This document shows, one piece after another, positions 12,656-35,620 of a stretch of 64,000 bases of DNA. This DNA comes from Steroidobacter agaridevorans (GTDB lineage: Bacteria; Pseudomonadota; Gammaproteobacteria; Steroidobacterales; Steroidobacteraceae). Each line of letters begins with the position of its first letter. Position 1 is the stretch's first letter. Under the pieces are notes generated by a model. It did no database searches and was not told where the DNA came from. It saw only the letters and a program-made list of their open reading frames with translations. Made by a program: the position numbers and the translations under genes. The stretch is taken from the NCBI RefSeq assembly GCF_009932555.1, contig NZ_BLJO01000006.1, positions 405,648-469,647 on the forward strand, read 5' to 3'.

Positions 12656-12722
12656 GATAGCGCGCGTGAAGAACGCGTGAAATTTGCGGTCCGCCCGATA
12701 GGGCAATACCCGCTAACGGACT

Positions 12723-13280: not shown

Positions 13281-13358
13281 ATCCAACCAACCCAGGGCCC
13301 CGGGGAGCAGTTCCCCTACCCCGAGGGGACGCCGATAACGGATTGCCGCAGGAACTCC

Positions 13359-13388: not shown

Positions 13389-13395
13389 CATGCAC

Positions 13396-13476: not shown

Positions 13477-13548
13477 ACGCAACAAATCACACCCCCGCCT
13501 CCCCCTCTGAAATGAGATTCGGGACTGGCGCAAAAAACAAGCTTCTAG

Positions 13549-15306
<1,758 letters not shown>

Positions 15307-17823: not shown

Positions 17824-18534
17824 TCAATCGCCCAGGTAAGCGCGTCTCACTTCCGGATGATCCAGCAGCGCGCTGCTTTCGCCAGAGAACACGATCTGCC
17901 CCTGGCGCAGCACGTAGGCGAAATCGGTGGAGCGCAGGCTCAGCTGTACGTTCTGCTCGACCAGCAGCAAACTGAAGCCGCTCTTCGCCAGGCGGCCCAG
18001 GACATCGAAAATCTCGGCGACGACTTTCGGCGCGAGGCCGATCGAAGGCTCATCGAGGATGAGCAGCCGCGGCCGAGTCATCAGAGCGCGGCCGATGGCG
18101 ACCATCTGTTGCTCGCCACCCGAAAGTGTTCCCACCGTCTGCTTCGACCGCTCATGCAGGCGTGGAAACAACTCGAACACCGTCTCCAGACTTTGCGTGC
18201 GATGAGCTTTCGGTTCGCCGTACGTCGCGGCAGCAATCAAGTTCTCGAGCACCGTGCATTCCGGAAACAGCAGCCGCCCTTCCGGCACCGTTGCGATGCC
18301 GGCACGCGTGCGCTGAGGGGCGCTCGAGGAACTGATGGACTCGCCGCCCCACTCGAGGCGGCCCTCACGCAACGGTAGCAATCCATTGATCGCCCGCACG
18401 AGCGTGCTCTTGCCCGCACCATTCGATCCGACGAGCGCAACCCGCTGACCGGGGGCGATGTCGAGATCGATGCCACGAACCACGTCGATAGGGCCGTAGC
18501 CGGTGCAGACATTCTTCAGCCGGAGCGCGCTCAT
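17824..18534 (-). CDS. livF: Liv-type ABC transporter ATP-binding protein LivF
   Basis: This is one of two ATPases of a hydrophobic amino acid/amide uptake (HAAT) ABC transporter. Walker A is GSNGAGKST (36-44), the signature LSGGEQQMVAIGRAL lies near 135, and Walker B is LLILDEPSIGLAP. The 236 residues match LivF. The start overlaps the livG stop by 4 nt (ATGA). It is the last gene of a catabolic cluster that begins at 32.6 kb, so its substrate is likely a compound or intermediate handled there rather than leucine itself. Confidence 0.94.
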   Translation of the reverse strand: MSALRLKNVCTGYGPIDVVRGIDLDIAPGQRVALVGSNGAGKSTLVRAINGLLPLREGRLEWGGESISSSSAPQRTRAGIATVPEGRLLFPECTVLENLIAAATYGEPKAHRTQSLETVFELFPRLHERSKQTVGTLSGGEQQMVAIGRALMTRPRLLILDEPSIGLAPKVVAEIFDVLGRLAKSGFSLLLVEQNVQLSLRSTDFAYVLRQGQIVFSGESSALLDHPEVRRAYLGD

Positions 18535-19253
18535 GACTGTGCGTTACCCAGATACGCTTCCTGCACACGCGGGTTAGCGATGACCTCGCATGTAGAACCC
18601 TGGGTAAGAACTTTCCCAAAGCATAGAACCACCGCCCGAGCACAAAGGCTGGTGACCACCGGAATCGAATGCTCGACGACGATCACCGCGATTCCAGCGC
18701 GCGGCAGCTGACGAATGCGCTCGCACATCGCCGTCGACTCTGTCGGAGTCAGCCCGGCCAACATCTCATCGAGCAACAACAGCTGCGGCTCCGTCGCCAG
18801 CGCTCGCGCAATCTCGAGCTGGCGCAGCTGCGCGACATTCAACGTTTCAGCATCGTGCTCCGCCAGACCCGCCATGCCGATGCGATCGAGCACGGCCCGT
18901 GCCGCCGCCGTCGCCTGTTTCGTTGAGGGATATCGAGAAAATGCCGCGACCTTGACGTTCTCCAGCACTGTCATGCCACGGAACGGCTTCACGAGCTGAA
19001 ACGTCCGCGCAAGACCACGACGGCAAATCTCATGCGGCGGTCGGCCGTCGATGCGCTGCCCGCCGAGGCGAATCGCACCTGACGTGAGCGTCGCCGCGCC
19101 GGCAAGGCAGTTGAACAAAGTCGTCTTGCCAGCACCGTTTGGTCCGATGACGGCGAATATTTCGCCAGCTCCGACTTCAAAGCTGACATCGCTGAGCGCG
19201 TGCAAGCCACCGAACGACTTGCTGACCCTTTGAACTTCGAGCAGCGACGTCAT
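18531..19253 (-). CDS. livG: Liv-type ABC transporter ATP-binding protein LivG
   Basis: This is the second ATPase of the HAAT transporter. The start at 19253 (MTSLLEVQRVSKSFGGL) overlaps the livM stop by ATGA; the longer frame adds an unconserved stretch. Walker A is GPNGAGKTT (37-45). The signature is atypical: LNVAQLRQLEIARAL stands where LSYGQQRRLEIARAL is usual, and Walker B is LLLLDEMLAGL. Such loss of the signature glycine occurs in one LivG branch as I recall it, so it need not mean inactivity. Confidence 0.93.
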   Translation of the reverse strand: MTSLLEVQRVSKSFGGLHALSDVSFEVGAGEIFAVIGPNGAGKTTLFNCLAGAATLTSGAIRLGGQRIDGRPPHEICRRGLARTFQLVKPFRGMTVLENVKVAAFSRYPSTKQATAAARAVLDRIGMAGLAEHDAETLNVAQLRQLEIARALATEPQLLLLDEMLAGLTPTESTAMCERIRQLPRAGIAVIVVEHSIPVVTSLCARAVVLCFGKVLTQGSTCEVIANPRVQEAYLGNAQS

Positions 19254-20242
19254 GAAACGACTTCCGCCGTTCGGCTGGCTCGACGAGCTAGCCGGCGCCG
19301 CTGCCACCGGGCAACGAACCAACCGGCGATACCTTGCGGCAGCACCAGTGCCAGCACGGCAAGCAACACCGCATAGACAACGATGTCGCTACCTGGAATC
19401 GCGCTGTAGTCGCGCAACAGAATGCTGAATGGCACAAGCACCGCCGCGCCGATCAAGGGTCCCCACAACAGCGACATGCCGCCAACAATCGAATACACGA
19501 GCATCTGAATCGACAACTCCACGCCGAGCACCGAGCGCGGATCGACGAAAGCGACATAGTTCGCATAGAACGCGCCGCAGAGCGCCGAAATGCCGGCGCT
19601 GAGCATGAAACATCGCAGCTTGAACGCGCGCGCATTCACACCCAGCGCTTCCGCCGCCTGCTCGTTGTCACGCAACGCACGCCAGTAATAGCCCGTGCGC
19701 GACTTCATCAGCGCCTCGCCGATAGCGATAGTGCCGATCAGAATGGTCATGATGATCAGCGCATACGGCCATTTCTCGAAAAACTGCAGCTGCCCAGGAA
19801 TGTCTTCCGCGGAGATCGGCATGATCATCCCATCCGAGCGGCCCAACGCTTCGGTCGCGGACACCGTGAAGAACGCGACCTCGCCAAACGCCAGCGTCGC
19901 GATGGCAAAGAAGTAGCCGCGCAATCCATAGCGAAAGCAAAGCATTCCAATAGCGGCCGCAGCCGCCACAGCAAGGCCCACGCCCAGCGGCCACGTCACA
20001 AGGGGCGACCATCCGTGCACCGATAGTCCCCACGCGACGCTGTATGCTCCGATGCCGACGAACAGCGCGTGACCGAGCGACATGAGCCCGGTCAGCCCAG
20101 CCATCATGTTCCAGCAGACGGCGAGCGTCCCGTAGAAGCAGGTGAAGATGAAGATGTCCATGAAGTAGCGATCGCCGCTCACCGCCGCAAAGGCGACAAG
20201 GAGCACGCCGGCCACGATCGTCGCAGTCCGAAAATTGCTCAT
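19250..20242 (-). CDS. livM: Liv-type ABC transporter permease LivM
   Basis: This is an inner-membrane permease of the HAAT transporter with 330 residues and about eight to ten helices. GLTGLMSLGHALFVGIGAYS and the motif LRDNEQAAEALGVNARAFKLRCFMLSAGISALCGAFYA are typical of LivM. The start at 20242 overlaps the livH stop (ATGA). The frame is open for 236 codons upstream, but that part is a shadow of livH. Confidence 0.94.
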   Translation of the reverse strand: MSNFRTATIVAGVLLVAFAAVSGDRYFMDIFIFTCFYGTLAVCWNMMAGLTGLMSLGHALFVGIGAYSVAWGLSVHGWSPLVTWPLGVGLAVAAAAAIGMLCFRYGLRGYFFAIATLAFGEVAFFTVSATEALGRSDGMIMPISAEDIPGQLQFFEKWPYALIIMTILIGTIAIGEALMKSRTGYYWRALRDNEQAAEALGVNARAFKLRCFMLSAGISALCGAFYANYVAFVDPRSVLGVELSIQMLVYSIVGGMSLLWGPLIGAAVLVPFSILLRDYSAIPGSDIVVYAVLLAVLALVLPQGIAGWFVARWQRRRLARRASRTAEVVS

Positions 20243-21114
20243 GCTCGGACGCTCCGATTCATCAGTCCCTCCGGTCGCGTCAGCAGGATCAGGATCAGAA
20301 TCACGAATGGCACGGCCGCGGCAATCGAAGCAGAGAACCATGCACCGGCGATGCTCTCGGCCAAGCCAACCACCAACGCTCCCACTAGCGCACCCGTGAA
20401 GCTCCCCAGGCCACCCAGGATCACGATCACAAAAGCCTTCAAGGTGAACAACGCACCGACATGCGGATTCACATACAGAAGGGACACGAGCAGCGGCCCG
20501 GCCACACCGAGCGTGCCGATGCCCACCGCCACCGCCCATTTGTAAACGCCAGTCACATCGATGCCGGACAGCGCCGCGCCATCGCGCGACTGCGCAACCG
20601 CCCGCATGATCAAACCGAAGTCCGTACGTTGCAGAACTACATACAACGCGCCGAGCAGCACAATCGAAATTCCGCAAGCGATGAGTTGATTGACCTGCAC
20701 GACGACGGGCCCAAGTTCCACACCCGCAATCGCACGCGCTTGAGTCACCAGCATGTTGTCGCCAGTGAACGCAACCAACGCCAGATGCTGGAGCAGCAAC
20801 GACAGCCCGAGTGTCGCTGCCATCTGATTGATCTCCGGCACGCGCAACGCGAATCGCATGACCGAGCTGTACAGCAGCGCACCCAGAACCATCAGCACCG
20901 GCGTCACCAGGGCAATCGCGACAATGGGATCGATGCCCAACAACGACCACGCGAAGTAGCCCGCATACATCGCGATCATCAGAAATTCGCCGTGAGCGAA
21001 GTTGATGATGCGCATCACGCCGAACACCAGCGTCAGCCCCACCGCGATCAATGCATAAAGCGCCGCGTTTGCGAGGCCGCCGACAATGGCTTGCAGGAAG
21101 ATTTCGAACGACAT
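20239..21114 (-). CDS. livH: Liv-type ABC transporter permease LivH
   Basis: This is the partner permease (291 residues) with the LivH features GLANAALYALIAVGLTLVFGVMRIINFAHGEF near the N-terminus and QSRDGAALSGIDVTGVYKWAVAVGIGTLGVAGPLL as the cytoplasmic coupling loop. Its ATG overlaps the last base of the upstream binding-protein stop codon. The order binding protein-H-M-G-F is standard. Confidence 0.95.
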   Translation of the reverse strand: MSFEIFLQAIVGGLANAALYALIAVGLTLVFGVMRIINFAHGEFLMIAMYAGYFAWSLLGIDPIVAIALVTPVLMVLGALLYSSVMRFALRVPEINQMAATLGLSLLLQHLALVAFTGDNMLVTQARAIAGVELGPVVVQVNQLIACGISIVLLGALYVVLQRTDFGLIMRAVAQSRDGAALSGIDVTGVYKWAVAVGIGTLGVAGPLLVSLLYVNPHVGALFTLKAFVIVILGGLGSFTGALVGALVVGLAESIAGAWFSASIAAAVPFVILILILLTRPEGLMNRSVRA

Positions 21115-22313
21115 CAGCGCGTCAACCTGAGGGGCTGGCTCGCGACAGCTTCCGGCCAGATGGTGACGAAGCGACCGCCGATGACCTGTGAGATCACGTT
21201 GCCGACGTTGTTCTGGCCCGCCGCATCGAAATCCAAAGCATCGTTGGGCAATAACGATGCCGGCCCGTTATCGAGCCGCAGGGCTCGCAACGAATCGCGC
21301 AGCTTGATGGGATCCCGAGTTCGGGCAGCATCGGCGGCAAGCGCCACGGCCCAAGTCGCGGCGTATGCCTGAGCCGCATTGCTCAGAGGCATCTCGCCGT
21401 ACGCCGCCTTGTAAGCTTTGGCGAACTGTTCGGTCGCGGCCTTCTTCAGATCGGGCATCCATTCGACGATGCCAAACGCACCTTCGACCATCGGCCCGAG
21501 TTGCAGCAACGTCGGATGCACATGTCCGCCGCCGTAGCCCAACACCATCGGCTTGTAGCGCTGAGCCGCGAGCGCTCGAAGCAGAACGACCTCATCGTCG
21601 ACATAACAGACGATCAGCACGAGGTCGGCGCCGGTCGCCTTCAGTTTGGCAGCCTGCGTGGACATGTCGGGCGACCCGGTGCGGAAGGTTTCCTCGCCGA
21701 CGATCCGAATGCCTTGCGCGGGCAGACCTTTCTTATAGCCTTTCGACACGGCCTGACCGAACGGGCCGTCCTCGTACGCAAGCGCCACCTTATCGATCGC
21801 GGCGCCTTTGCTGCGCAGATAATTGATGAAGCCGCCGACGTCCCGCGCCGCCCAGCTGCCCTTAGGCGACACGCGAAACACGAACTGCAGATTGCGTTCG
21901 GTGATCGAATCGGTAACGGCGCTGGTGACAATGAACGGCGTGCGATAGCGCTCGGCCACTTGCATCGAAGGCATCGTGACCGCCGATGCCCAGGCTCCGA
22001 GCAGCGCACTGACCTCATCGCGTGCTATCAGGCGCTCGGCGGCGTGTCGTCCGACTTCTGGTTTCGATTGAGTATCGGCGATCAGCAGCTCGACTTTCGC
22101 GCCGTCCAACCCCGCAATACCGCCGGCAGCGTTGATCTCCCTGGCCGCGAGCTGATGCGCCTTCAGCAATCTCGCACCGTCCGCCGCCGTCGCGCCTGTG
22201 ATGGGCGCCAATACGCCGATCTTGAGCGGCTCCGTTGCGTGTGCGGACATGTAGCACACTGCCGCCACCACGCCGGCGAGCCGCAGCAGTAGTTGTTTGT
22301 TCAATCGGGCCAA
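21114..22313 (-). CDS. Periplasmic substrate-binding protein of the Liv-type transporter
   Basis: This is a type I periplasmic binding protein (Peripla_BP_6 family, 399 residues). A signal peptide (LLLRLAGVVAAVCYMSAHA) precedes EPLKIGVLAPITGATAADG and AAREINAAGGI, the standard opening of this family. It starts with TTG, supported by GGAGGGGG 7 nt upstream. The ligand cannot be assigned; the family takes branched-chain amino acids, amides, urea and aromatic acids. It sits between the dehydrogenase genes and the permeases. Confidence 0.92.
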   Translation of the reverse strand: MARLNKQLLLRLAGVVAAVCYMSAHATEPLKIGVLAPITGATAADGARLLKAHQLAAREINAAGGIAGLDGAKVELLIADTQSKPEVGRHAAERLIARDEVSALLGAWASAVTMPSMQVAERYRTPFIVTSAVTDSITERNLQFVFRVSPKGSWAARDVGGFINYLRSKGAAIDKVALAYEDGPFGQAVSKGYKKGLPAQGIRIVGEETFRTGSPDMSTQAAKLKATGADLVLIVCYVDDEVVLLRALAAQRYKPMVLGYGGGHVHPTLLQLGPMVEGAFGIVEWMPDLKKAATEQFAKAYKAAYGEMPLSNAAQAYAATWAVALAADAARTRDPIKLRDSLRALRLDNGPASLLPNDALDFDAAGQNNVGNVISQVIGGRFVTIWPEAVASQPLRLTR

Positions 22314-22333
22314 CGCGAGTCCCCCTCCATGGA

Positions 22334-23104
22334 TCAGCGCGCGGTGAAACCTCCGTCCACGGGAAGCGCCACTCCAGTAACAAAAGACGAGTCATTGGAG
22401 GCGAGCCACAGCGCGGCATGCGCCACTTCTTCGGCCTTGCAGAGCCGTCCCATCGGAACATTCGCGAGCAATCGCGTCTGATTCGCCGCCGCTTCCTCGG
22501 GGTCGCCCGAACGTCCGGTGAAGCCGCTTTTCATCGGCGTATCCGCAAGGCCTGGGCACACAACATTGACTCGCACGTTGTCCGCCGCGAATCGAAGCGC
22601 GAGCGATTTGGTCAGCCCTACCACCGCGAATTTGGCGGCTGAGTAGATGGGACTGAACATCGAACCGACGAGACCGGAGACCGACGCAGTGAAGATCAGT
22701 GAGCCACCGCCGCGCTTGCGCATATAACCGATGACTTCGCCAGCACCGAGGACAGCCGAAGTCACATTCAGCATCATCGCCTTCTCGTACTCGGCCAGAT
22801 CCATGCCCTCGACGTTGCCGGGGCCGGGAGTGCCCGCGTGTGCCCAGAGCGCATCGATGCCGCCGAGCTTCGCCGCGGCATCGTTGATCGAGCGACGACA
22901 TTCCTCCGGCCGCGACAGATCGGCCTGCACTGTTTCGATAGTGTGGCCTCGCTGCTTCATCTCCGCAGCGAGCTCTGCGAGCGCACCGGCATTGATATCG
23001 ATAGCTGCGACCTTGGCGCCTTCACGCAGAAACAGCTCGATGCCCGCCCGTCCCATTCCCGAAGCTGCCGCCGTGATGACGGCGAGTTTGCCTGCAAGGC
23101 GCAT
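22334..23104 (-). CDS. Short-chain dehydrogenase/reductase
   Basis: This is a classical SDR oxidoreductase of 256 residues that probably uses NAD(H). The nucleotide motif is TAAASGMG (11-18), Asp36-Ile37 after the second strand (AAIDIN) favours NAD over NADP, and the catalytic residues are Ser141, Tyr154 and Lys158 (YSAAK). The usual NNAG is HAG here. The C-terminal VTGVALPVDGGFTA is family-typical. It is 20 nt upstream of the binding-protein gene and 56 nt after the aldehyde dehydrogenase gene, consistent with sequential oxidation of an alcohol and an aldehyde. Confidence 0.93.
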   Translation of the reverse strand: MRLAGKLAVITAAASGMGRAGIELFLREGAKVAAIDINAGALAELAAEMKQRGHTIETVQADLSRPEECRRSINDAAAKLGGIDALWAHAGTPGPGNVEGMDLAEYEKAMMLNVTSAVLGAGEVIGYMRKRGGGSLIFTASVSGLVGSMFSPIYSAAKFAVVGLTKSLALRFAADNVRVNVVCPGLADTPMKSGFTGRSGDPEEAAANQTRLLANVPMGRLCKAEEVAHAALWLASNDSSFVTGVALPVDGGFTAR

Positions 23105-23160
23105 GAATCCCCCTTCCCGAATCTTGGGCCCGGCGCGCAGTCGCGGCGCCGGCGAGTTGT

Positions 23161-24648
23161 TTACTGAGCGTAGGCGTCTGGAAAGCGACCGGCGGTGCTG
23201 ATGACGGTGGTGCGTGTTTCCAGATACGCGTCGAAACCTTCCAGCCCGTTCTCGCGACCCCAGCCGCTGGCTTTGAAACCGCCGTAGGGCGTCGACCAGC
23301 GAATGAAGCGATAGGTGTTGACCCAAACGATGCCCGCTTCGATGCGCGACGAAACCCGCAGCGATCGACCGACATCGCGCGTCCACAGCCCGGCCGCGAG
23401 ACCATAGGAACTGTCATTGGCGAGCGCGATGGCTTCGTCTTCGCCATCGAACGGGATCAACGCCGCCACCGGACCGAAGATTTCCTCGCGAGCGATCCGC
23501 ATGTCGTTGCGAACGTTCGCGAACACCGTCGGCTCGATGAAGTAGCCGGCAGCGAGCTCGCCTTCCTGCAACCGCCGACCGCCGGCGACCAACTTCGCAC
23601 CCTCATTGCGACCGATATCGATGTACGAAAGCGTCTTTGCAAGCTGTTCGGAGTGCGCCTGCGGGCCCATATGCGTACTTTCCTGCAGCGGCATTCCGAC
23701 ACGCACACGTTTGGCGCGGCGAGAGAATTCAGCGACGACTTGATCGTAGATGGGCCGCTCGACCAGAACACGCGAACCCAAGGCGCAGCTCTGGCCGCAC
23801 AGCGCCCAAGCAGAGCCAGTCGCGGCATTGAGCGCCTGCTCGACATCCGCATCGGCGAAGATGATGTGCGGCGCTTTGCCGCCAAGTTCGAAGGTGAAAC
23901 GTTTGAGCGTATCCGCCCCTGCGCGCAGGATGGCTTGCGCCGTCGTGCCTTCGCCGGTGAACGCAATCTTGTTCACATCCGGATGTTGAACGAGCCGCTC
24001 GCCCGCGCCGCCCTTGCCGTAACCTGGCACGATGTTCACGACACCGGCTGGGAATCCGGCTTCTTCGAACAGCTTGCCCAGCTCCAATGAAGTCACGGGC
24101 GTTTGTTCGGCAGGCTTCAGCACGACGGTGCAGCCTGCAGCCAGCGCCGGGCCGAGCTTCCACATCGCCGCCATCATCGGCACGTTCCACGGCGTGATCG
24201 CACCGACAACACCGACCGGCACGCGTGTAGTGAAGGCGTGAACACTGTCGTCGATCGGAATGGTTCGGCCGCCGTTCTTGTCGGCCATCGACGCGTACCA
24301 GTGATAGGCAGTGGCATGACCGCCAATATCGACGCGCGATTCGCGGAGCGCGCGTCCGTTGTCACGCGTCTCCAAGACCGCCAACTCAGGTGCTCGCGCA
24401 CGATATATATCGGCGAACCGGCGCATCAGCGCGGCGCGTTCATGCCCAGGCATCCGACTCCAGGGACCAAACGCCTGGCGTGCAGCAGCCACGGCTTTGT
24501 CGATGTCCTTCGCTCCACCGTAGGCGACCAACGCCCACGGCCTGCCAGTGGAGGGGTCGATGCTCTCCAGCATTCCGCCGTCTTCCGGCGCGACCCATGC
24601 GCCACCGATAAAGAGATTGCGATACTCGACCAGCTTGTCCGCAGTCAC
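23161..24648 (-). CDS. NAD(P)-dependent aldehyde dehydrogenase
   Basis: This is a classical ALDH (495 residues) converting an aldehyde to a carboxylic acid. The catalytic Cys288 is in GQSC, the general base Glu254 in FELGGK, and Asn155 in PWN. The SDR-type cofactor fold motif FTGEGTTAQ is near 230. It starts with GTG, with GGAG 8 nt upstream. It lies 5 nt after the amidohydrolase gene. The substrate is unknown; the neighbourhood suggests a degradation intermediate. Confidence 0.95.
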   Translation of the reverse strand: MTADKLVEYRNLFIGGAWVAPEDGGMLESIDPSTGRPWALVAYGGAKDIDKAVAAARQAFGPWSRMPGHERAALMRRFADIYRARAPELAVLETRDNGRALRESRVDIGGHATAYHWYASMADKNGGRTIPIDDSVHAFTTRVPVGVVGAITPWNVPMMAAMWKLGPALAAGCTVVLKPAEQTPVTSLELGKLFEEAGFPAGVVNIVPGYGKGGAGERLVQHPDVNKIAFTGEGTTAQAILRAGADTLKRFTFELGGKAPHIIFADADVEQALNAATGSAWALCGQSCALGSRVLVERPIYDQVVAEFSRRAKRVRVGMPLQESTHMGPQAHSEQLAKTLSYIDIGRNEGAKLVAGGRRLQEGELAAGYFIEPTVFANVRNDMRIAREEIFGPVAALIPFDGEDEAIALANDSSYGLAAGLWTRDVGRSLRVSSRIEAGIVWVNTYRFIRWSTPYGGFKASGWGRENGLEGFDAYLETRTTVISTAGRFPDAYAQ

Positions 24649-24653
24649 CGCGC

Positions 24654-26453: not shown

Positions 26454-26471
26454 CGAACCTTCACACCTGCT

Positions 26472-28574
26472 TCAAAACTTTTTGCTGACCGTGCCGAGGA
26501 TGCTGCGCGTCTGGCCCGGCGTGCACATGCCGTCGAACGGCACGGCCCACGCGGCGCAGGTGGCGTAGTACTCCTTGTCGGCCAGGTTGTTCACATTGAG
26601 CGACAGGCTCCAATCCCTGTAAGTCGCTTCGGCGCTCGCATCCACCAGCGTCACCGCCGGCGTCTTCTGGATCTGGTAGTAATCCAGCTTGTCGCCCACG
26701 CGACGCACGCCTGCGCCGAAGCGCATCGTGAGATCGTTGTTGACGTAGAGCATCTGGCTCAACCACAGCGAGGCGAGATGATTCGGCAGGTCCTCGATGC
26801 GATCGCCGGCCGGATGCGACGACGTGCCTTCGATCACTTCGGCGTCGGTGTAGCTCCAGCTGGCGTTGACCCGCAGGCCCATGTCGAAACTCACCTCCGC
26901 TTCCAGCTCGACGCCCTTGGAGCCGATCACGCCGCTTTGAATGAAGTTCTGCAGGTTGGTCGGATCGCTGGTGAGAAAGTTGCTGTCTTCGATGTCGAAG
27001 TAGGTCGCCGTGATCAAGCTGTTCCGGAACGGCTGCCATTTGATGCCGGCTTCGTACTGCTCGCCTTCCTGCGGCTTGTAGGGATTGCCGTAGAAGTCGC
27101 CGCCGAAGATCGGCGAGAACGATTCGGAGTAGCTCGCAAAGGGCGAGAACCCTTTGAACACTTCGGCAATCACGCCGACCTTGAAGGTGGTCGCATCCAC
27201 CGTGTCCTTCGGGCTCAAGGTCGCTTCGGACGTGGCGCGGTCACGACGCACGCCCAGTACGAACGAAACGCGGTCGCCGACCTTCATCTGATCCTGCAGA
27301 TACACGCCTAGCTGAGTGCTGCGGCTGTCGAACCCATTGCTGTAGCCATAGTTGAACGCCTGTCCGTACACCGGGTTGTAGACGTTCAGCGGGATCGTCA
27401 TCGCCTCGAAGCAGCCCGGGTAGTAGGCGACGCACGAATAGCCCTCGCGCCGATCCTGTTCGAACAAGGTGTAGTCGATGCCGACCAGCACCTTGTGCGA
27501 GAACGGGCCCGTGTCGAAATCGAACTGCGCGTGATTGTCGGAATTGACGATGGTGTACGAGTCGTCGAGCAGATAGAACGCGCGCGACAACGTCGTCCGC
27601 TCCGGATCGATGAAGGTATCGACGCCGAAGTTGAAGGTCGGATACACCTCGCCGTAGTCCACCTTCTGATCCAGATAACGGGTGTTGCTCGACACCGCGA
27701 GCAGATCGTTGAAGCGATGGTTCACCAGCAGCGTGATGGCGTACTGATCCGTCTTCATGTGGTTGAAGCCCGGCTCGCCGGCGAAGAAATCGATGGGAAT
27801 CTTCGGATTGTCGGCATTGGCTTGCAGCGTCTTCGACATGGGCAGATAGGTCTGCGTGCCCATGTCTTCCTTCTGATACAAGCCGATCAGCGTCACGTCG
27901 GTATTCTCGCCGGGCTTCCAGGTGAGCGACGGCATGGCGACGTATTTGTCGTTGGCCTGACCTTCCCACATCAGATCGCCGTCGCGGACCACGCCGACGA
28001 AGCGGGCGGCGAATTCATCGCTCAGCGGGCCGGTGAAATCCGCCTGTAATTGCTTGCGGTCCCAGTTGCCGGCCTGCAGGCCGATCTCACCGCCAGCTTC
28101 CCACTGCGGCCGTTTGCTGACCGCGTTCAGCAAACCGCCCGAGCTGCCGGCGCCATACAACACCGCCGACGGGCCGCGCAGAACTTCGGCTCGCTCCAAC
28201 GTGAATACTTCCGTGGTCGAGCCATACAAACCCTTCGGCGTTTTGTTGAGCCCATCCAGAAACTGTTTCAGCGCAAAGCCACGGGCTGCGAAGTAGTCCG
28301 AGCGAGTGTCGCCACCGGAGAGCTCGGTCGCGACACCGGCCGAGTAACGAAATACTTCCTGATAGCTGGTCGCGCCGCGCTCCATGATCTGCTCGGCGGT
28401 CACGACGCTGATGGACTGTGGAATCTCGACGAGCAATGTGTCTGTTTTGGTCGCGGCGCCGGCGCGATCCGCGAGGACAGTCACTTCCTCGAGCGTTTCG
28501 CCTTCGGCGGCCTGCGTGCGCTGCGCCGACGCTAGTGCCAGCGCGCAGGCAACGGCCATGGAAATCTTGTTCAT
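26472..28574 (-). CDS. TonB-dependent receptor, siderophore-receptor type
   Basis: This is an outer-membrane active transporter of 700 residues with a signal peptide (ACALALASAQRTQA), a TonB-box-like segment (LEEVTVLAD), a plug domain (IPQSISVVTAEQIMERG and ERAEVLRGPSAVLYGAGSSGGLLNAVSKRP) and a 22-strand barrel ending in Phe (SKKF). The plug resembles the siderophore receptor subfamily, but its place in a catabolic cluster and the downstream amidohydrolase suggest uptake of an organic substrate or its metal chelate. Paired GATGGGTAG-type repeats lie 84-113 bp upstream of its start. Confidence 0.95.
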   Translation of the reverse strand: MNKISMAVACALALASAQRTQAAEGETLEEVTVLADRAGAATKTDTLLVEIPQSISVVTAEQIMERGATSYQEVFRYSAGVATELSGGDTRSDYFAARGFALKQFLDGLNKTPKGLYGSTTEVFTLERAEVLRGPSAVLYGAGSSGGLLNAVSKRPQWEAGGEIGLQAGNWDRKQLQADFTGPLSDEFAARFVGVVRDGDLMWEGQANDKYVAMPSLTWKPGENTDVTLIGLYQKEDMGTQTYLPMSKTLQANADNPKIPIDFFAGEPGFNHMKTDQYAITLLVNHRFNDLLAVSSNTRYLDQKVDYGEVYPTFNFGVDTFIDPERTTLSRAFYLLDDSYTIVNSDNHAQFDFDTGPFSHKVLVGIDYTLFEQDRREGYSCVAYYPGCFEAMTIPLNVYNPVYGQAFNYGYSNGFDSRSTQLGVYLQDQMKVGDRVSFVLGVRRDRATSEATLSPKDTVDATTFKVGVIAEVFKGFSPFASYSESFSPIFGGDFYGNPYKPQEGEQYEAGIKWQPFRNSLITATYFDIEDSNFLTSDPTNLQNFIQSGVIGSKGVELEAEVSFDMGLRVNASWSYTDAEVIEGTSSHPAGDRIEDLPNHLASLWLSQMLYVNNDLTMRFGAGVRRVGDKLDYYQIQKTPAVTLVDASAEATYRDWSLSLNVNNLADKEYYATCAAWAVPFDGMCTPGQTRSILGTVSKKF

Positions 28575-28657
28575 CCTTCACTCCCCATGCTGATCTTTGG
28601 AAATATCGCCAGCGTTGAAATGGAAGCTATGGCTGGAAGCCGACGGTGGCTAGCCCA

Positions 28658-28687
28658 CTACCCATCGCGTGTCACGAACTACCCATG
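28658..28687 (-). promoter_or_regulatory. Two direct repeats (CATGGGTAG, CGATGGGTAG) 21 bp apart upstream of the TonB receptor gene
   Basis: Read on the minus strand, CATGGGTAG (28687-28679) and CGATGGGTAG (28667-28658) point toward the receptor gene with a 21-bp period. The same repeat pair with the same 21-bp spacing lies upstream of the cluster regulator at 32697-32727. This suggests binding sites for the MalT-like regulator. Confidence 0.55.
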
Positions 28688-28697
28688 CAGGCGGCGC

Positions 28698-29951
28698 TCA
28701 TACCCGCCCACGCCGCGACCAGATGCCGTAAATCAATGACGCAACGAGCGTTGCATCGAGCGCGGGCACCGTGGTCAACGTGAAGTAACCTGAATTGGCG
28801 AGCAGCGCGATGCCGGCCGACACCGCCCAGGTGACGATTGCCGGCCAATGCACCGACGCCTGTGTGCTGTTCGAGCGGAACGCATCGATGACGTAGATGG
28901 CGGCGATCGGTGGAATGATCGCGCCGAGCAACAGCAGGAACGACACGAACGCGTCCAGAATGCCGCCGACCGCCAGCAGCGAGCCCAATACGCCGGCGAC
29001 CATTGTGAATTTCCACTGCGGAACGCTGGGGAAAGTCGCGGTGAGGCTGAGACTCGCCGAATAGAGATTCGCGGAATTGATGGTCCAGGTGGACAGAATC
29101 AGCACCAGCAGAGCCGGCACACCGAGACCGAAGCCCATGATCAGCTTCATGATGTCGATTTCACCCGTGGCCAACACCGGGATGGCCGCCGCCATCGTGA
29201 GCAGCGGCGTTGCTACCGGAAACGACAGCACCATGCCCAACACCGACTGACCGGCGGTGCGGATATAGCGAGTGAGATCGGGCATTGCCGCCACGGTCAG
29301 CATGTTGCCGCCGATCAGTGCGGACAGCGCGATACCGAACGTCATCGGCTCCGGCGGCGTGGGGTCGGGCGCGGATACGACGCCGTAACGGCGCACGGCC
29401 ATCACGACCACCGCGCCCAAAATCAGTGCAAGGATCGGAACTGCGATCAATGCCAATCGGTCGAGCGCGCGGAATCCGTAAATCGTCGTGATTGCCATGA
29501 GCAGGCCGCCGACCACAACGAACGCTGCGAACGGTCCCGACACACCCAGGACTTCTTGCGTGCCCGCGACCATCGCATCACCGAAGAACGACGCGTTCAC
29601 GCCGAACCAGCCGAAGTGCACAAAGGCGATCGCGATGTTTACTAACGCCGCGCCCCGGACGCCGAACGACCGCTGCACGAGCAGATAGGTAGTGAGCCGG
29701 GTGCGAACGCTGACCAACGCAGTAAGACATCCCATCGCGCACAGAATCAATCCGGCGGCGAGGCCGACTACCACCGCATCGCGCATTCCCAACGCGGTGG
29801 ATATCTGCGCGCTACTGAGAAAGCTTGGCAGCGAGATCGCGAAGCCAATCAGGATCAGCGCGACTCGCCAGCCACCGACGGTCTCGCTTTCCGGCACTGG
29901 CTCATTGGCGAAATGCTCGGTCGGCTTGGATTCGGTGACGGCGCTGACCAT
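28698..29951 (-). CDS. NCS1-family cytosine/purine-type permease
   Basis: This is an inner-membrane nucleobase-cation symporter (417 residues, about 12 helices) of the CodB/cytosine permease branch. The early segment VALILIGFAISLPSFLSSAQISTALGMRDAVV and the pattern GWFGVNASFFGDAM are typical. The family imports cytosine, hydantoins, allantoin, thiamine or related rings. It is 4 nt after the DUF917 gene, in a HyuA-DUF917-permease unit, so a hydantoin-like or lactam substrate is a fair inference. Confidence 0.92.
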   Translation of the reverse strand: MVSAVTESKPTEHFANEPVPESETVGGWRVALILIGFAISLPSFLSSAQISTALGMRDAVVVGLAAGLILCAMGCLTALVSVRTRLTTYLLVQRSFGVRGAALVNIAIAFVHFGWFGVNASFFGDAMVAGTQEVLGVSGPFAAFVVVGGLLMAITTIYGFRALDRLALIAVPILALILGAVVVMAVRRYGVVSAPDPTPPEPMTFGIALSALIGGNMLTVAAMPDLTRYIRTAGQSVLGMVLSFPVATPLLTMAAAIPVLATGEIDIMKLIMGFGLGVPALLVLILSTWTINSANLYSASLSLTATFPSVPQWKFTMVAGVLGSLLAVGGILDAFVSFLLLLGAIIPPIAAIYVIDAFRSNSTQASVHWPAIVTWAVSAGIALLANSGYFTLTTVPALDATLVASLIYGIWSRRGRV

Positions 29952-29955
29952 GGGA

Positions 29956-31077
29956 TTACCAGCCGTTGAGCTCGGCGATCGAGCGATAGGGCCCGGGGAG
30001 CCCGAAAGCGTCGGGTCCCAGAACAGCCAAAGCCTGCGGTGAACGCAACGCCTGCGGAGCGCTCGCTCCGACGACCTTGACGCGCTGACCGTATTTCAAA
30101 CATTCGGTGACGATGGTCTCGGCCGTCTCGCGGTCGAGGATGCTGATGATGTCGGGCACCAGCGCGCGTACTTCGCCGTTCAGGCGCGCGATCAGATTTT
30201 CGTTCTTGAATTCCACTTCGAGGCGCTGCCCGCCGCCGAACGCATCGATCACGGCGCGACCGACGGAGAATCCGTTGCGAGTCTCGCGCTTCAGGTCGAC
30301 GATCTTGCCGTCGAACAGCACGCCGGCCTTGTCGAACTGTCGCGACGTCTTCAGCGCGTCGAACAATGCTTCGAAAGGATCGCGCCCGCCCTCGCGCGCA
30401 ATGCGAATGCTTCTGCCGATGGCGAGCGCATCGGAGATCGTGCCGCGCAGGGCGTTCGCTTTCATGTCGCGAGCAAACGCGGAATATTCGATGAGATGGC
30501 ACGAGCCGCCGAGCGTCACCGCCACGGAACGCGCCAGGCGCTCCTCGCTGACGTTATCGACCGTCTCGAGCACGACGCAATTGCCCTTGTCATCGGTGAG
30601 GATGGCGGGACAGGCCTTCTGGCCGCGGATATTGAAAATCACCATTTGCGATTCGGGGAATGCACGGCCCATGCCGTCGCAGTCCACGACTGGAACGCCG
30701 GCCCGCAGCGCCAATACCAGCGCGGCGAGCCCGTTGCTGCCGCCGACTTCGACGGGCAGCACGGCGTCTACCCGGCGGCCGGAAATTGACTCCAGCCTGC
30801 GCAGTCCTTGCAACGCCTCGCGTCCGCTCGGCAACTTCTCCGCTGAAATCGTCGGCGCACCGATCCAGCCGCACGGGGCGAGGAACGCGTCGTCGGGCAG
30901 TGAAGTCACATCGATCAGCTCGATGACATTGCCATCGGCCAGCGCCGCCTCGATTTCCATGAATGCCGTGTGCGGATCGCCGCCGCCGCCCGAGCCGAGG
31001 AAGGCGCAGCCGCGCGCCAGATCGGCCACGTCGTCGAGACTCAGCGTCCTGCCTTGAAGTTTGGGTGAGGCGCTCAT
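29956..31077 (-). CDS. DUF917 family protein
   Basis: This protein of 373 residues matches DUF917: LARGCAFLGSGGGGDPH near the N-terminus, LPVEVGGSNGLAALVLALRAGVPVVDCDGMGRAFPE in the middle and RVKVVGASAPQALRSPQALAVLGPDAFGL at the end. It is cytosolic. Its start overlaps the HyuA stop by 4 nt. Pairing of DUF917 with hydantoinase/oxoprolinase proteins, sometimes as a fusion, is common, and it is taken to be a partner subunit or an enzyme in the same pathway. No reaction has been assigned with certainty. Confidence 0.93.
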   Translation of the reverse strand: MSASPKLQGRTLSLDDVADLARGCAFLGSGGGGDPHTAFMEIEAALADGNVIELIDVTSLPDDAFLAPCGWIGAPTISAEKLPSGREALQGLRRLESISGRRVDAVLPVEVGGSNGLAALVLALRAGVPVVDCDGMGRAFPESQMVIFNIRGQKACPAILTDDKGNCVVLETVDNVSEERLARSVAVTLGGSCHLIEYSAFARDMKANALRGTISDALAIGRSIRIAREGGRDPFEALFDALKTSRQFDKAGVLFDGKIVDLKRETRNGFSVGRAVIDAFGGGQRLEVEFKNENLIARLNGEVRALVPDIISILDRETAETIVTECLKYGQRVKVVGASAPQALRSPQALAVLGPDAFGLPGPYRSIAELNGW

Positions 31078-32633
31078 GCGGCACTCACCGCCAGATCTCC
31101 TACCACCTTTGCACGCAGCTGCACGGTGTTCCCGGGAAGATAAGAAAGGAAGGTTTCTTCGACATCGACCAATCGAACGGTGCTCGCATCGGCGCCGGCG
31201 GCGATTGCGCGCTCTGCCGCCTCGCGCTCTATGTCTTGAAGCGCCTCATCGCGATTCTGGTTGTCGTAGGCGACGATGCGGTCCACTTCGGCGCCCACTT
31301 GAGCGATGGCCGCGCCGACGGCGTTCGCGACCGCGGCGTGATCGGGCTTGACCACTCGCGACGCGCCCTTCAATTCCGGCGGCACCAGAATGCTGCCACC
31401 GCCGACCAGCACGACGGGTACATCGCCGGCCGACGTTTTCATGCGATCGATGCCGTCCTCGAATATGGAGCGGAAGCGCGCGAGGATTTGTTCGGTCACG
31501 CCCGCTTTGAGCGATGGAATGTTCTCTGGATTGCCGAAACGCGCCAGTCCCGCCTTCACAGCGATATCGCTCGCGGTGAGCGTCGAGCCGCCGAACAGGT
31601 AAGCCTCTTCCGGCAAGCGATAGCCCACCGAGTCGGGTCCGATGGCGCTCGGCCAACCGTCCCTATCTAAATGAATGCGTGTACCGCCGCCCAGGCCGAT
31701 CGACAGGATGTCGGGCATGCGGAAGTTGGTGCGGACCCCGCCGATGTTGACCGCGATGGAAGATTCGCGCGGGAAGCCATTCACCAGCGCGCCAATGTCA
31801 GTCGTCGTGCCGCCTACGTCCATGACGATGGCGTCCTGAATGCCGGTCAGAAACGCTGCGCCTCGCATGCTGTTGGTCGGGCCGGAGCCCAGCGTGAGCA
31901 CGGGATACTGCGCGGCGTACTTCGCTGAGATCAATGTGCCGTCGTTCTGGCTCACGTACAGCGGCGCGTGAATGCCCATCTCGGAGAAGGCGGCGGTGAA
32001 CGACGCCATCACATGGCGAGCCATGCGAGAGAGCGAGGCATTCAAGATGGTCGCGTTCTCACGCTCCAGAAAGCCAATGCGGCCGAGCGCGCTCGACACT
32101 GTGACCGAAATGTCCGGCGCGACCTCCTTGACCAGCTGCGCCGCCCGCTGCTCCATCGATCGATTGATCGGCGAGAACACGCATGAGATGGCGACGGACT
32201 GCAGCCCTTTCCGGCGCAATTGCAGGGCGGCGTTGCGGACCGCGGTCTCGTTGAACGCCGTGTTTTCCTGGCCGTCGAACTCGTAGCCGCCGGGCAGCTG
32301 AAAGCTCACGCCGCCGATGCAACGCTTCAGGTCGTCGGGCCAGCCGCTCATCGGCGGCAAGGCTTCGCCGGCTGCACCCGCGAGACGCAGTACGCCGACA
32401 CCGAGCAGCCCCTTGCGCTCGACCAGTGCATTGACGAAGTGCGTGGTGCCGATCATCACGCCTTCGATCTCCGCCGCCTGAACGGCGGCAGCATCGAGCA
32501 CGGCGCGAGTCGCGCTCACAATGCCGCTGCTCACGTCGCCGGTGGTCGGCCGCTTTGCCGAGGCCAACACGGTCCGTCCTGAAATCAGAACGGCATCCGT
32601 ATTCGTGCCTCCTACATCGATACCCAGTCGCAT
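31074..32633 (-). CDS. Hydantoinase/oxoprolinase family protein (HyuA-type)
   Basis: This is an ATP-dependent ring-opening enzyme subunit of 519 residues. The N-terminus MRLGIDVGGTNTDAVLI is the ATP-binding motif of the Hydantoinase_A/oxoprolinase family; VMDVGGTTTDIGAL and ILSIGLGGGTRIHLD follow near residues 265 and 305. I chose the Met at 32633 because it begins this motif directly; the longer frame to 32663 adds ten residues. The usual HyuB partner is absent and DUF917 takes its place. It is the first gene of the operon, divergent from the regulator. Confidence 0.94.
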   Translation of the reverse strand: MRLGIDVGGTNTDAVLISGRTVLASAKRPTTGDVSSGIVSATRAVLDAAAVQAAEIEGVMIGTTHFVNALVERKGLLGVGVLRLAGAAGEALPPMSGWPDDLKRCIGGVSFQLPGGYEFDGQENTAFNETAVRNAALQLRRKGLQSVAISCVFSPINRSMEQRAAQLVKEVAPDISVTVSSALGRIGFLERENATILNASLSRMARHVMASFTAAFSEMGIHAPLYVSQNDGTLISAKYAAQYPVLTLGSGPTNSMRGAAFLTGIQDAIVMDVGGTTTDIGALVNGFPRESSIAVNIGGVRTNFRMPDILSIGLGGGTRIHLDRDGWPSAIGPDSVGYRLPEEAYLFGGSTLTASDIAVKAGLARFGNPENIPSLKAGVTEQILARFRSIFEDGIDRMKTSAGDVPVVLVGGGSILVPPELKGASRVVKPDHAAVANAVGAAIAQVGAEVDRIVAYDNQNRDEALQDIEREAAERAIAAGADASTVRLVDVEETFLSYLPGNTVQLRAKVVGDLAVSAA

Positions 32634-32674
32634 GGCCGGCAGTCTACGTGGGCCACGGCGCACGCCCAGCCCTA

Positions 32675-32727
32675 AGACGGGTAAGACTGGCGACGCCGAT
32701 GGGCAGTCGGGGCGCGACGATGGGTAG
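32675..32727 (+). promoter_or_regulatory. Tandem GATGGGTAG-type repeats between the HyuA operon and its regulator
   Basis: CGATGGGCAG (32697-32706) and CGATGGGTAG (32718-32727) are direct repeats with a 21-bp period; a weaker copy, AGACGGGTAA, lies at 32675-32684. A -10-like TATGCT follows at 32742-32747, so the last repeat would overlap the -35 position, as for a class II activator. Similar repeats with the same spacing precede the TonB receptor gene. They are candidate sites for the LuxR/MalT-like protein. Confidence 0.55.
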
Positions 32728-32770
32728 CGCTGTTGATTTGCTATGCTCGACCGAACCCCCGACCGTTACC

Positions 32771-35452
32771 ATGGCACCCGTGAACAGCCTCGGTGATCCG
32801 ATACTCACCAAGATCGCGCCTTCGGCCCGGCCGAGCCAGCACGTACCGCGCGATCTGCTGATTCAGCGCCTCGCCGACGTGGTTTCGCGCCGGCTCACCC
32901 TTCTGCATGCGCCGGCCGGCTATGGCAAGACCAGCTTGCTCGCGCAGTGGCATCGGCTGCTGGTAGAGCGCGGCGTTGAGGTCGCCTGGCTCACGCTCGA
33001 AGAAGAAGAGTCCGACGCGGCCCGCTTCGCCGAGTACCTGATGGTGGCGATCGGCGGCGGCGCCAGCGGCGAGAGCATGCCCACGCGCGCCGCACTGTCC
33101 GCCATCGTGAACCGGCTTTCGAATGCCGAACGCGACACTGTCCTGATCCTCGATGACTTCCACCGCGCCGAGAGCGAGGACGTTCTTCATTTCATGCGTG
33201 GGCTGATCAAGCTCGCGCCCGCCCGACTGCACATCGTGATCGCCTCACGCGATTACCCCAAGCTGGGACAAGCCGTGCTCGCGGCGAATGAAGATCTGGT
33301 CGAGATCGGCGTCGACGATCTGAAGTTCACGCTCGACGAGGCGCAGGTGCTGCTGAATCGTGCGGCGTCCGAGCAACTCGCCGATGACGACGTCGCGCGC
33401 CTCGTGAAACGCACGGAAGGCTGGCCGATTGCGCTACAGATGACTGCATTGTCCTTGCGCAAAGGTTGTGACCGCGCGGAGCTGATCGCAAATTTCTCCG
33501 GTCCGGCGTGGGAGCTCGCGAGTTACCTTTCGGAGCAAGTGCTGGCGAGTCTGCCGCCCGAGATCGAGAACATCATCGCGCGCACCGCCATCCTGGAGCG
33601 GTTGAACGGCGACCTGGTCAATCTGCTGTGTGAGCGCACCGATGGCCAGATGATGTTGGAGCAGTTGGAGAAGCAGCATCTGTTTCTGATGCCGCTGGAC
33701 TCGCAACATCTCACCTATCGCTATCACCAGCTGTTCGCCCAGATCCTGCGCGATCGGCTCGCCCGCCGCGATCCGGCGATGTTCCGACAGCTGCATCGGC
33801 AGGCGGCGAACTGGTTCAGCTCGCATGGACAGATGGCCGAAGGAGTGGCTCATGCGATCGGCGCGGCCGACGAAGAGTTTCTCGCCGTCATTCTCGACGA
33901 TGCCGGCGGCTGGCGCATGATTCCGGAAGGAAGAATCGAGACGCTGCTCGCCGGACTCACTCATGTGTCCAGCGCGACTATCGCGCGTTATCCGCGACTC
34001 ACGCTGGCGAATGTTTATCGCTTGATCAAGCAAGGCGAGATGACGACGGCGCGCGCCAGTTACGATCTGTTCCGCAACTCGGTGGATCGCGCCAGCCTGT
34101 CGCCGGATCTTTGGACCGAAGTCAATCTGGTCGGCGAAGTGCTGTCGGGCTACGAGAACGCGCCGGTGAAGCGCGAAGACCTGCTCGCCAAGGAAGCGCT
34201 GATCCTCAGCCTGCCGTCGAACGATCACCTGATGCTCTCCAACGTCTGCGAGACGTTGGGGGAGAAATATTGCGATTGCGGCTGGCTCGAGCGAGCGGTC
34301 GAGCCGACCCGACGCGCTCGCGAACATCATCGTGCGCTGGGCTCGCTTTATGGAGAGATGTTTACTCGCCTGCTCGAAGCACGGATCCGGCTCGCGCAAG
34401 GTCGACTCGATGAGGCTCAAGTCGTATTGAAAGAAGCCGCCGCGGACATCCATCACGCGTACGGGCCGCGATCCGATCTCGCCGCGAACTGCGCTGTGTA
34501 TCAGGCGGAGGCTCTGTTCGAACGGGATTCCATCGATGAAGCGATGGCGCTGCTCGATTGGGCGTTGCCTCACATGGAGCAGTCCGACGGCTGGTTCGAG
34601 ATCTATGCCTCAGGATTCTGTACCGCCATTCGCGCGGCGTTCGGCAAGAGCCCGGCGGATGCGGAGCGGTTGATCGCGGGGATGCGAGCGATCGCGGATC
34701 GGCGTCATCTGAAGCAGTTGCAGATGCTGGCGGATATCTATGAAGTCGAGGCGCTGATCCACGCCGGACGCAACGACTCGGCGAGCCAGCGCGCACAGGA
34801 CATCGGCATTCATGAGCTGGCGGCAGCGATGCAGGAAGAGATTCCTGCTTACCGACATGTCGCGCTCGCGGCGTCTGTGTGTCTCGCGAAGATTCATCTG
34901 TGCAGCGGCGATCATCAGGCTGCCCTGGCGGAAATCGACAGCACCGAGCGCTGGGCCCGGCAACATGGTCACGGCCGGCTGCTGATAACGTTATGTATTC
35001 TCGCCGCGCATGCGCATCGGCTCGCGAAAGAGCCCGAGCCGGCGATCGCCCGCTTCGACGAAGCGGTCGGCATGTCCATGTTCCAGGGCTTCATCGGGCC
35101 GTTCCTCGATTGCTGGCGCTTCATCAGCCTGTCCGCCACCATCGACGCGCGTCACAGCACGATGCGCAACACCGATCGTTTTCGCGAAAATTTCCTGCGC
35201 CGCCTGCGCAAATCCCTCGAGCGACATTCCGCTCAAAGCCGCGAGTCGACGCTGCTGAGCGCGCCGGAGCTGTCGACGCTCAAGCATCTCGATCAAGGCT
35301 ACACAAACAAAGAGATCGCGCGCCTGCTCAAGATCTCGCCGAACACGGTGAAGTATCACTTGAAATCGCTTTACGAAAAGCTAGGCGTAAATTCACGGAG
35401 AGATGCTGTGCGCTTGTCGCGAGAGCAGAAGCTGCTGGATCGCACGTTATGA
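32771..35452 (+). CDS. MalT-like LuxR-family transcriptional regulator
   Basis: This is a large STAND-type ATP-dependent activator of 893 residues. Walker A is APAGYGKTS (47-55), Walker B is TVLILDDFH (near 124), a TPR-like helical region spans about 440-800, and the LuxR helix-turn-helix is at the C-terminus (STLKHLDQGYTNKEIARLLKISPNTVKYHLKSLYEKLGV). MalT relatives bind an inducer and ATP, then oligomerise on tandem sites. I chose the ATG at 32771; another Met at 32720 lies within the repeat region. It is divergent from the HyuA operon and probably controls the catabolic cluster. Confidence 0.92.
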   Translation: MAPVNSLGDPILTKIAPSARPSQHVPRDLLIQRLADVVSRRLTLLHAPAGYGKTSLLAQWHRLLVERGVEVAWLTLEEEESDAARFAEYLMVAIGGGASGESMPTRAALSAIVNRLSNAERDTVLILDDFHRAESEDVLHFMRGLIKLAPARLHIVIASRDYPKLGQAVLAANEDLVEIGVDDLKFTLDEAQVLLNRAASEQLADDDVARLVKRTEGWPIALQMTALSLRKGCDRAELIANFSGPAWELASYLSEQVLASLPPEIENIIARTAILERLNGDLVNLLCERTDGQMMLEQLEKQHLFLMPLDSQHLTYRYHQLFAQILRDRLARRDPAMFRQLHRQAANWFSSHGQMAEGVAHAIGAADEEFLAVILDDAGGWRMIPEGRIETLLAGLTHVSSATIARYPRLTLANVYRLIKQGEMTTARASYDLFRNSVDRASLSPDLWTEVNLVGEVLSGYENAPVKREDLLAKEALILSLPSNDHLMLSNVCETLGEKYCDCGWLERAVEPTRRAREHHRALGSLYGEMFTRLLEARIRLAQGRLDEAQVVLKEAAADIHHAYGPRSDLAANCAVYQAEALFERDSIDEAMALLDWALPHMEQSDGWFEIYASGFCTAIRAAFGKSPADAERLIAGMRAIADRRHLKQLQMLADIYEVEALIHAGRNDSASQRAQDIGIHELAAAMQEEIPAYRHVALAASVCLAKIHLCSGDHQAALAEIDSTERWARQHGHGRLLITLCILAAHAHRLAKEPEPAIARFDEAVGMSMFQGFIGPFLDCWRFISLSATIDARHSTMRNTDRFRENFLRRLRKSLERHSAQSRESTLLSAPELSTLKHLDQGYTNKEIARLLKISPNTVKYHLKSLYEKLGVNSRRDAVRLSREQKLLDRTL

Positions 35453-35589: not shown

Positions 35590-35620
35590 TGATCCTATTT
35601 TGCAATTGACCGGAGGTCGT

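Follow-up and report, generated by a model that had tools for sequence, protein, structure and literature searches.

DUF917 proteins are described, in excerpts of one report, as lacking experimental characterisation, and are linked there to cyclodipeptide-oxidase clusters (PMC11055893). Parts of a transcriptome study of Clostridioides difficile list a permease, a DUF917 protein and a hydantoinase with consecutive locus tags and co-directional change (PMC12915319), and in a portion of a work on Lactobacillus rhamnosus a cytosine permease, a DUF917 protein and a hydantoinase have consecutive accessions (PMC7513527). For ATP-dependent relatives of the hydantoinase subunit HyuA, an adenosine motif, GxxPGP, is reported. 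The literature searched, partly in extract and with most subscription papers outside the search, gave no published reaction for a HyuA-DUF917 pair. In this paper we analyse a stretch of 64,000 nucleotides (hereafter the window) from the 8.0 Mb genome of Steroidobacter agaridevorans, a member of the Steroidobacteraceae, which carries such a pair within a cluster of thirteen genes. The cluster is a real catabolic operon, probably a regulated one, built on an enzyme pair that is widespread but uncharacterised. Our preferred reading, to which we give a probability of about 0.55, is an inducible operon that scavenges a small cyclic amide, imide or hydantoin-like compound by nucleotide-driven ring opening.

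All thirteen genes were verified at 17824–35452, twelve of them close-packed on the minus strand and a MalT-like gene divergent on the plus strand, which is the arrangement that a first-pass annotation had given. Domains and gene order also support its description of a catabolic cluster reaching from the outer membrane to the cytoplasm with HyuA and DUF917 at its centre. In the order of transcription the minus-strand genes are HyuA, DUF917, NCS1, TonB receptor, Amidohydro_3, aldehyde dehydrogenase (ALDH), SDR, LivK, LivH, LivM, LivG and LivF. By open reading frame coordinates with trimmed starts, HyuA/DUF917, LivH/LivM and LivG/LivF overlap by 4 bp each and the widest gap, between NCS1 and the TonB receptor, is 123 bp. 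A single transcript across the twelve genes is possible, because terminator-like sites are no commoner than in shuffles (11 between 17000 and 36500 against a mean of 13.9, i.e. no excess). The features are as follows.

31074..32633, minus strand: hyuA-like gene of the short subfamily, 519 amino acids (aa); PF05378 and PF01968, with model matches to N-methylhydantoinase, acetone carboxylase and caprolactamase A
29956..31077, minus strand: DUF917 / S-Me-THD-like protein, 373 aa; PF06032 and PF20906, 4-bp overlap with hyuA
28698..29951, minus strand: NCS1 permease; PF02133, nearest to cytosine permease
26472..28574, minus strand: TonB-dependent receptor of the siderophore-receptor class; TIGR01783
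24654..26453, minus strand: Amidohydro_3 metal-dependent hydrolase, exported, probably a lipoprotein; PF07969, N-terminal cysteine motif
23161..24648, minus strand: aldehyde dehydrogenase, accessory; PF00171
22334..23104, minus strand: SDR-family oxidoreductase, accessory; PF13561
21114..22313, minus strand: LivK-like binding protein, narrow addition; PF13458
20239..21114, minus strand: LivH-like permease, narrow addition, found in L005 only; PF02653
19250..20242, minus strand: LivM-like permease, narrow addition, found in L005 only; PF02653
18531..19253, minus strand: LivG-like ATPase, narrow addition; PF00005, with PF12399 slightly under its cut-off
17824..18534, minus strand: LivF-like ATPase, narrow addition; PF00005
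32771..35452 (longest frame from 32555), plus strand: MalT-like STAND/LuxR activator; GerE, TPR_MalT and AAA domains
32676..32726, minus strand: candidate operator of three direct TRCCCRTC repeats, from an upstream alignment and a pattern search

The most likely start of hyuA is 32633. The MalT-like gene probably starts at 32771 and not at 32555, a placement of which we are unsure, since L007 has no ATG there.

Loci for comparison were collected by DUF917 similarity (L005-L013 and L024-L043), from plasmids (L044-L059) and by HyuA similarity (L060-L090); the sixteen plasmid loci were selected among 842 records that matched HyuA and 137 that matched DUF917. Counts refer to a set of 72 loci chosen by HyuA or DUF917 similarity, the window not counted and the HyuA-free loci L040-L043 left out, and a gene was scored as present at tblastn E <= 1e-8 and coverage over 20%. 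Twenty stretches elsewhere served as controls; they were set at round coordinates in 13 genomes of the sample, for the most part on contigs that also carry a locus. One is 8.6 kb long and none is matched to the plasmid loci. The loci overlap in kinship, so the figures are counts and not independent events, and loci cut by contig ends are included in all of them. The counts rest on tblastn, which is insensitive, and the greedy gene caller gave wrong-strand frames in G+C-rich DNA. Annotated cytosine permeases of L050 and L058 and a LuxR-type gene of L051 were missed, and those of L054 and L056 fell under 20% coverage, so the numbers for NCS1 and for the regulator are lower bounds.

The pairing of the HyuA and DUF917 genes is conserved, in archaea as well as in bacteria. 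Every one of the 31 loci newly fetched by HyuA similarity holds DUF917, and 16 of 20 relatives' loci fetched by DUF917 similarity hold HyuA. The pair spans Listeria, Rhizobium and Haloferax, and occurs also on plasmids of Firmicutes, Actinobacteria and one haloarchaeon. The two genes lie more than 300 bases apart only in L056 (337) and in L032 (2.2 kb, with a TonB gene between them). By tblastn each is present in 72/72 loci, which were chosen by just this similarity, and in 0/20 controls. The first-pass annotation had treated DUF917 in the place of HyuB as a peculiarity of this cluster; with DUF917 in 31/31 HyuA-fetched loci, the pairing proves to be general. It was right that the HyuB partner is missing here: the cluster holds none, and the only HyuB match in the genome assembly is on another contig, next to the single other HyuA found in the genome, a long one. 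These two genes (G000:C2:492674-495895; L002, L004) are of the 5-oxoprolinase type, and the HyuB match has an in-frame TGA in the assembly. Elsewhere, L024 carries two HyuA-DUF917 pairs back to back (6659-13559).

The regulator, the pair, the NCS1 permease, the TonB receptor and the exported amidohydrolase make up a recurrent set, a six-gene core that is complete in six of the 72 loci outside the window (L005, L006, L007, L008, L010 and L049), among them loci of an Alteromonadaceae bacterium and of a Novosphingobium plasmid (L049). In L008 the core is present by name, its TonB receptor and partly covered NCS1 being only 39% alike. The DUF917 tree (90 rows, midpoint root) places the window in a nine-row clade with L005-L011 and L049 at support 100/98; named orthologues of the window's DUF917 are those of Peristeroidobacter soli (94%), a Steroidobacter metagenome-assembled genome (MAG; 89%) and Steroidobacter gossypii (87%). 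The amidohydrolase is present in all the other clade loci (eight in number) except L011, where NCS1 is followed by an amidase and, just beyond it, by the contig end. Over the 72 loci, the NCS1 permease is found in 38, the MalT/LuxR regulator in 29 (both lower bounds), the Asp/Glu/hydantoin racemase in 12, Pot/Opp-type ABC parts in 13, an Amidohydro_3 of the window's type in seven and PucR in two, each against 0/20 controls, while the TonB receptor is in 31 (1/20 controls) and an amidase in three (1/20). NCS1, TonB receptor and amidohydrolase, which the first-pass annotation had placed in the cluster, thus recur as partners of the pair. A second Amidohydro_3-type gene, distant from that of the window, lies about 4 kb from HyuA in L031, L064, L068, L082 and L083 and in 0/20 controls; the L064 gene was checked against Pfam and is Amidohydro_3.

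The genes at the far end of the cluster are less constant. ALDH and SDR accompany the pair in L005, L008 and L009; in the last two, both MAGs, the regulator, the pair, Amidohydro_3, ALDH and SDR adjoin, with an MFS transporter after SDR. By tblastn neither was found beside the pair in L006, L007, L010 or L049. Over the whole set there is no enrichment, with ALDH in 5/72 loci against 2/20 controls and SDR in 6/72 against 3/20. LivK/H/M is found in 1/72 loci and 0/20 controls, and the Liv transporter is confined to the window and its nearest relative. In L006 and L007 a LeuA gene stands about 2 kb after Amidohydro_3, and ALDH, SDR and Liv are absent at the locus. The draft genomes of these two sister Steroidobacter (G008 and G010) keep HyuA-DUF917-NCS1-TonB-AH3 (AH3, the Amidohydro_3 gene) and gave no match for LivK (E <= 1e-40) or ALDH (E <= 1e-150); among the three sister genomes examined, only G002 has a LivK match. 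The first-pass annotation had named, as evidence that would refute it, neighbourhoods in which the Liv genes or the dehydrogenases never travel with HyuA and DUF917. This refutation succeeds by half: the Liv genes hardly ever do (1/72), and the dehydrogenases sometimes do (L005, L008, L009).

Two unrelated units could also lie side by side here, a HyuA-DUF917-NCS1-TonB-AH3 operon and an ALDH-SDR-Liv block with a role of its own. The two sister genomes with LeuA in place of the block speak for such a division, as do the ALDH and SDR relatives in controls. Against it, ALDH-SDR stands directly after AH3 in L008 and L009 too, at 72-79% identity, and the gaps here are 5-56 bp with no clear terminator. 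We regard this as a doubtful alternative, though one to be taken seriously. Within the clade ALDH-SDR is optional and recurrent, and the Liv genes were either gained narrowly, in a group that includes P. soli, or lost in the sisters. AT skew, at 0.176 and 0.195 in window 18001-22000, is above that of the other 2-kb steps over an interval that roughly equals the Liv genes.

The HyuA that is paired with DUF917 belongs to a distinct short subfamily by its sequence. The window protein keeps both DxGGT phosphate motifs and has no GxxPGP, which is absent from 75/75 short HyuA rows (one of them a 21-residue fragment) and present in 3/3 long HyuA genes with the motif region covered; a fourth long HyuA, which is cut, shows none. 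Four divergent or long rows (L046_5205, L048_18974, L030_17141 and the cut L059_16) were kept apart from the 75. One of these, L046_5205 (464 aa), adjoins a DUF917 gene and lacks GxxPGP, and by the pattern used its first phosphate motif is also absent. Of 41 HyuA rows from the survey of the order, 13 belonged to loci collected before, one to the window itself, and a partial match (G310) was left out. With at most 5–6 candidates per genome scored, short HyuA was found in 35/296 sampled genomes of the order and 6/249 of the phylum, the window genome being included in both. From its family, the window HyuA is likely to be a nucleotide-dependent activator of a ring amide. The first-pass annotation had spoken of ATP-dependent ring opening as if established; this goes too far for a HyuA without GxxPGP, even though both phosphate motifs remain.

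The window gene is the only PF06032 match in the genome, and both of its DUF917-family domains (PF06032 and PF20906) pass the gathering score, at 187.7 and 186.3 bits against 27. Its product is likely to be the second half of a ring-opening enzyme; sequence comparison revealed no recognisable HyuB-like His/Asp metal site in it. A different role for DUF917, that of a desulfurase which works alone on thiohydantoin or S-methyl thiohydantoin, as when ergothioneine is broken down, is suggested by the present Pfam domain name, S-Me-THD, and by matches to both NCBIfam desulfurase models, these names being all from which desulfurase members of the family are known here. The scores, however, are 89.7 bits for NF058532 and 76.6 for NF058529 against cut-offs of 450 and 440, so that membership in the S-methyl thiohydantoin desulfurases fails. 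Moreover, at positions that are invariant or almost so, the paired DUF917s carry other residues than the four DUF917s without HyuA (N115 to S/T, G113 to P or E). In the tree the four HyuA-free rows split from the other 86 at support 100/100. Ten more DUF917s (four HyuA-free and six from HyuA loci) likewise score 38.6 to 120.5 bits, far under the cut-offs, and such scores would say only that none of the tested DUF917s is a close relative of the named desulfurases. We consider a desulfurase very improbable. The HyuA-free relatives L040-L043 form a separate branch, with neither desulfurase model above cut-off. Tandem DUF917 copies stand next to one HyuA in L044, L047, L052, L054 and L045. Rhizobium, Aureimonas, Aminobacter and Qingshengfaniella have two copies and Haloferax has three, so the HyuA partner might be a hetero-oligomer.

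The regulator is MalT-like in domain order and fails the MalT NCBIfam equivalog (337.3 bits against a cut-off of 537). In the gap of roughly 137 bp between hyuA and malT, 42 bp before the hyuA start, TRCCCRTC is directly repeated at 32719-32726, 32698-32705 and 32676-32683, that is 21–22 bp or about two helical turns apart. The pattern was defined after viewing the alignment of six upstream regions; in paired form it occurs once in the 64 kb against 0.01 expected. Looser repeat pairs stand at the same place upstream of hyuA in L005-L008, with two matches in 389 kb of control stretches. The repeats are likely the best operator candidate for the MalT-like regulator, and we claim no more for them. 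A hexamer seen by eye, TAGACT, about 7 bases before the hyuA ATG (window 32633-32646, minus strand), is conserved in the window and L005-L007 and reads TAGGAT in L008 and L009; its position would fit a leaderless hyuA transcript. On the 3' side of the MalT-like gene lies a PEP-CTERM protein (35600-36403, plus strand), and further on one of 1205 aa that combines PD40 propeller repeats with an amidohydrolase region at its C terminus (39882-43499, minus strand).

Among the transport genes, the NCS1 permease is nearest to the cytosine permease 7qoa (119 bits) and then to the hydantoin permease Mhp1 (43 bits). It passes PF02133 only, failing the NCBIfam CodB equivalog with 182.5 against 326, and is likely an importer of a small ring compound. 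LivK, whose nearest relative is a binding protein of the Leu/Ile/Val type, also fails its NCBIfam subfamily (LivJ/LivK, 83.6 against 477). The first-pass annotation had assigned import of the periplasmic hydrolase product to Liv. This is unlikely, because Liv is found only in the window and its nearest relative (1/72 other loci, with no LivK match in two sister drafts), and NCS1 is the better candidate; one point in favour of Liv-type import is a different Peripla_BP_6 gene in L013, outside the clade, 4.7 kb beyond DUF917 on the other strand. The exported hydrolase of the window is probably a lipoprotein, to judge from an N-terminal cysteine motif that was recognised by eye in five of eight N termini (window, L005, L006, L007 and L010); those of L009 and L049 resemble plain signal peptides and that of L008 is neither clearly.

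The TonB receptor passes the siderophore-receptor model TIGR01783 (310.5 bits against a cut-off of 223.5), and the closest solved protein is the enantio-pyochelin receptor 3qlb, followed by CntO, FoxA and FhuA. On these grounds the cluster could be thought to degrade a metal chelator, the receptor importing the chelate and the amide bonds and rings being cut for carbon and nitrogen. Yet receptors of the siderophore class also carry non-siderophore cargoes, and the thirteen genes include neither a flavin-type reductase nor a known siderophore permease. We consider chelator breakdown very improbable.

For the preferred reading, scavenging of a small cyclic amide, imide or hydantoin-like compound, we propose the following course. 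The compound, or a larger conjugate of it, would cross the outer membrane by the TonB receptor and be trimmed by the exported amidohydrolase, and the NCS1 permease would bring the ring into the cytoplasm. There short HyuA, as its family suggests, would use a nucleotide to activate the ring amide, and the product of the overlapping DUF917 gene would complete the hydrolytic opening. The MalT-like activator would sense the compound and bind the direct repeats upstream of hyuA; in some strains ALDH and SDR may oxidise a side chain or the carbon product, and the Liv transporter may be an add-on that widens uptake, outside the core pathway. Support comes from domains and gene order, the HyuA-DUF917 linkage, the core in 6/72 loci and the candidate operator. 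It comes also from the HyuA model matches to N-methylhydantoinase and caprolactamase, the nearness of NCS1 to cytosine and then hydantoin permeases, and frequent partners elsewhere that are transporters and the Asp/Glu/hydantoin racemase. The substrate class is the one that the first-pass annotation had named, and it remains the most likely.

Several points weigh on the other side. In the plasmid loci with annotation no N-carbamoylase came to notice, and no search aimed at it was made there. The siderophore class of the TonB receptor could point to another cargo. GxxPGP is missing from all 75 short HyuA rows, so the use of ATP is not assured. The repeats were not found, with the looser pattern upstream of hyuA, in L009-L013 or L049. 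The NCS1 of L008 is distant (39%, cut by the end of the fetched stretch) and none was seen in L009. NCS1 is present in 38/72 loci, a lower bound; other loci rely on ABC importers of the Pot/Opp type, for peptides or polyamines, and the class of substrate may therefore be variable or broader.

These importers bear on a further alternative, that the substrate is a cyclic dipeptide (diketopiperazine) or other peptide-derived ring, which the pair opens to a dipeptide for peptidases to finish. L051 has an Opp-type importer, an isoaspartyl peptidase and a dipeptidase, L029 an isoaspartyl-peptidase relative and DUF885, and L028 a prolyl oligopeptidase; in addition, excerpts of PMC11055893 report an enrichment of DUF917, hydantoin racemase and dipeptide transporters in clusters for cyclodipeptide oxidase. 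The thirteen genes of the window, however, include no peptidase and no peptide importer, and the similarity of NCS1 to cytosine permease suggests a small ring. A cyclic dipeptide seems to us fairly improbable. We suggest more tentatively than the operon itself, and at somewhat less than even odds, that short HyuA and DUF917 are a separate class of ring-opening enzyme. In such a class the nucleotide would be bound otherwise than in 5-oxoprolinase, there being no GxxPGP, and DUF917, unrelated to HyuB by sequence and without the metal tetrad, would resolve the activated ring; the clade of the window would then be a scavenging system dedicated to supplying this enzyme from the outer membrane inwards. 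With a regulator, a candidate operator and importers of its own, the cluster allows its substrate to be tested through growth and induction; DUF917 pairs for which only the family is annotated at present would thereby gain a function.

Compared with known systems, the cluster shares with the HyuAB family (caprolactamase CapAB, 5-oxoprolinase and N-methylhydantoinase) the HyuA fold and both phosphate-binding motifs. Its HyuA, by contrast, is about 175 aa shorter than CapA, has no GxxPGP and no HyuB partner in the cluster, and its DUF917 lacks a recognisable Asp-His-Asp-His metal site. With the S-methyl thiohydantoin and thiohydantoin desulfurases (NF058532, NF058529) it has in common a two-domain family, by Pfam name, and weak model matches, whereas the window protein is far under both cut-offs and is paired with HyuA. 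CV_3147 (PDB 2o3i), a solved DUF917-type protein whose entry title gives no activity, is 25% identical. Closest are the modules annotated as 'hydantoinase/oxoprolinase family protein' and 'DUF917 domain-containing protein', which have the same pair, closely spaced, often with an NCS1 permease, a TonB receptor or ABC importer, and LuxR/MalT or PucR, some with Lrp/AsnC or other regulators. From these the clade of the window, in which no racemase was found, is set apart by an exported Amidohydro_3 of its own and a siderophore-type receptor.

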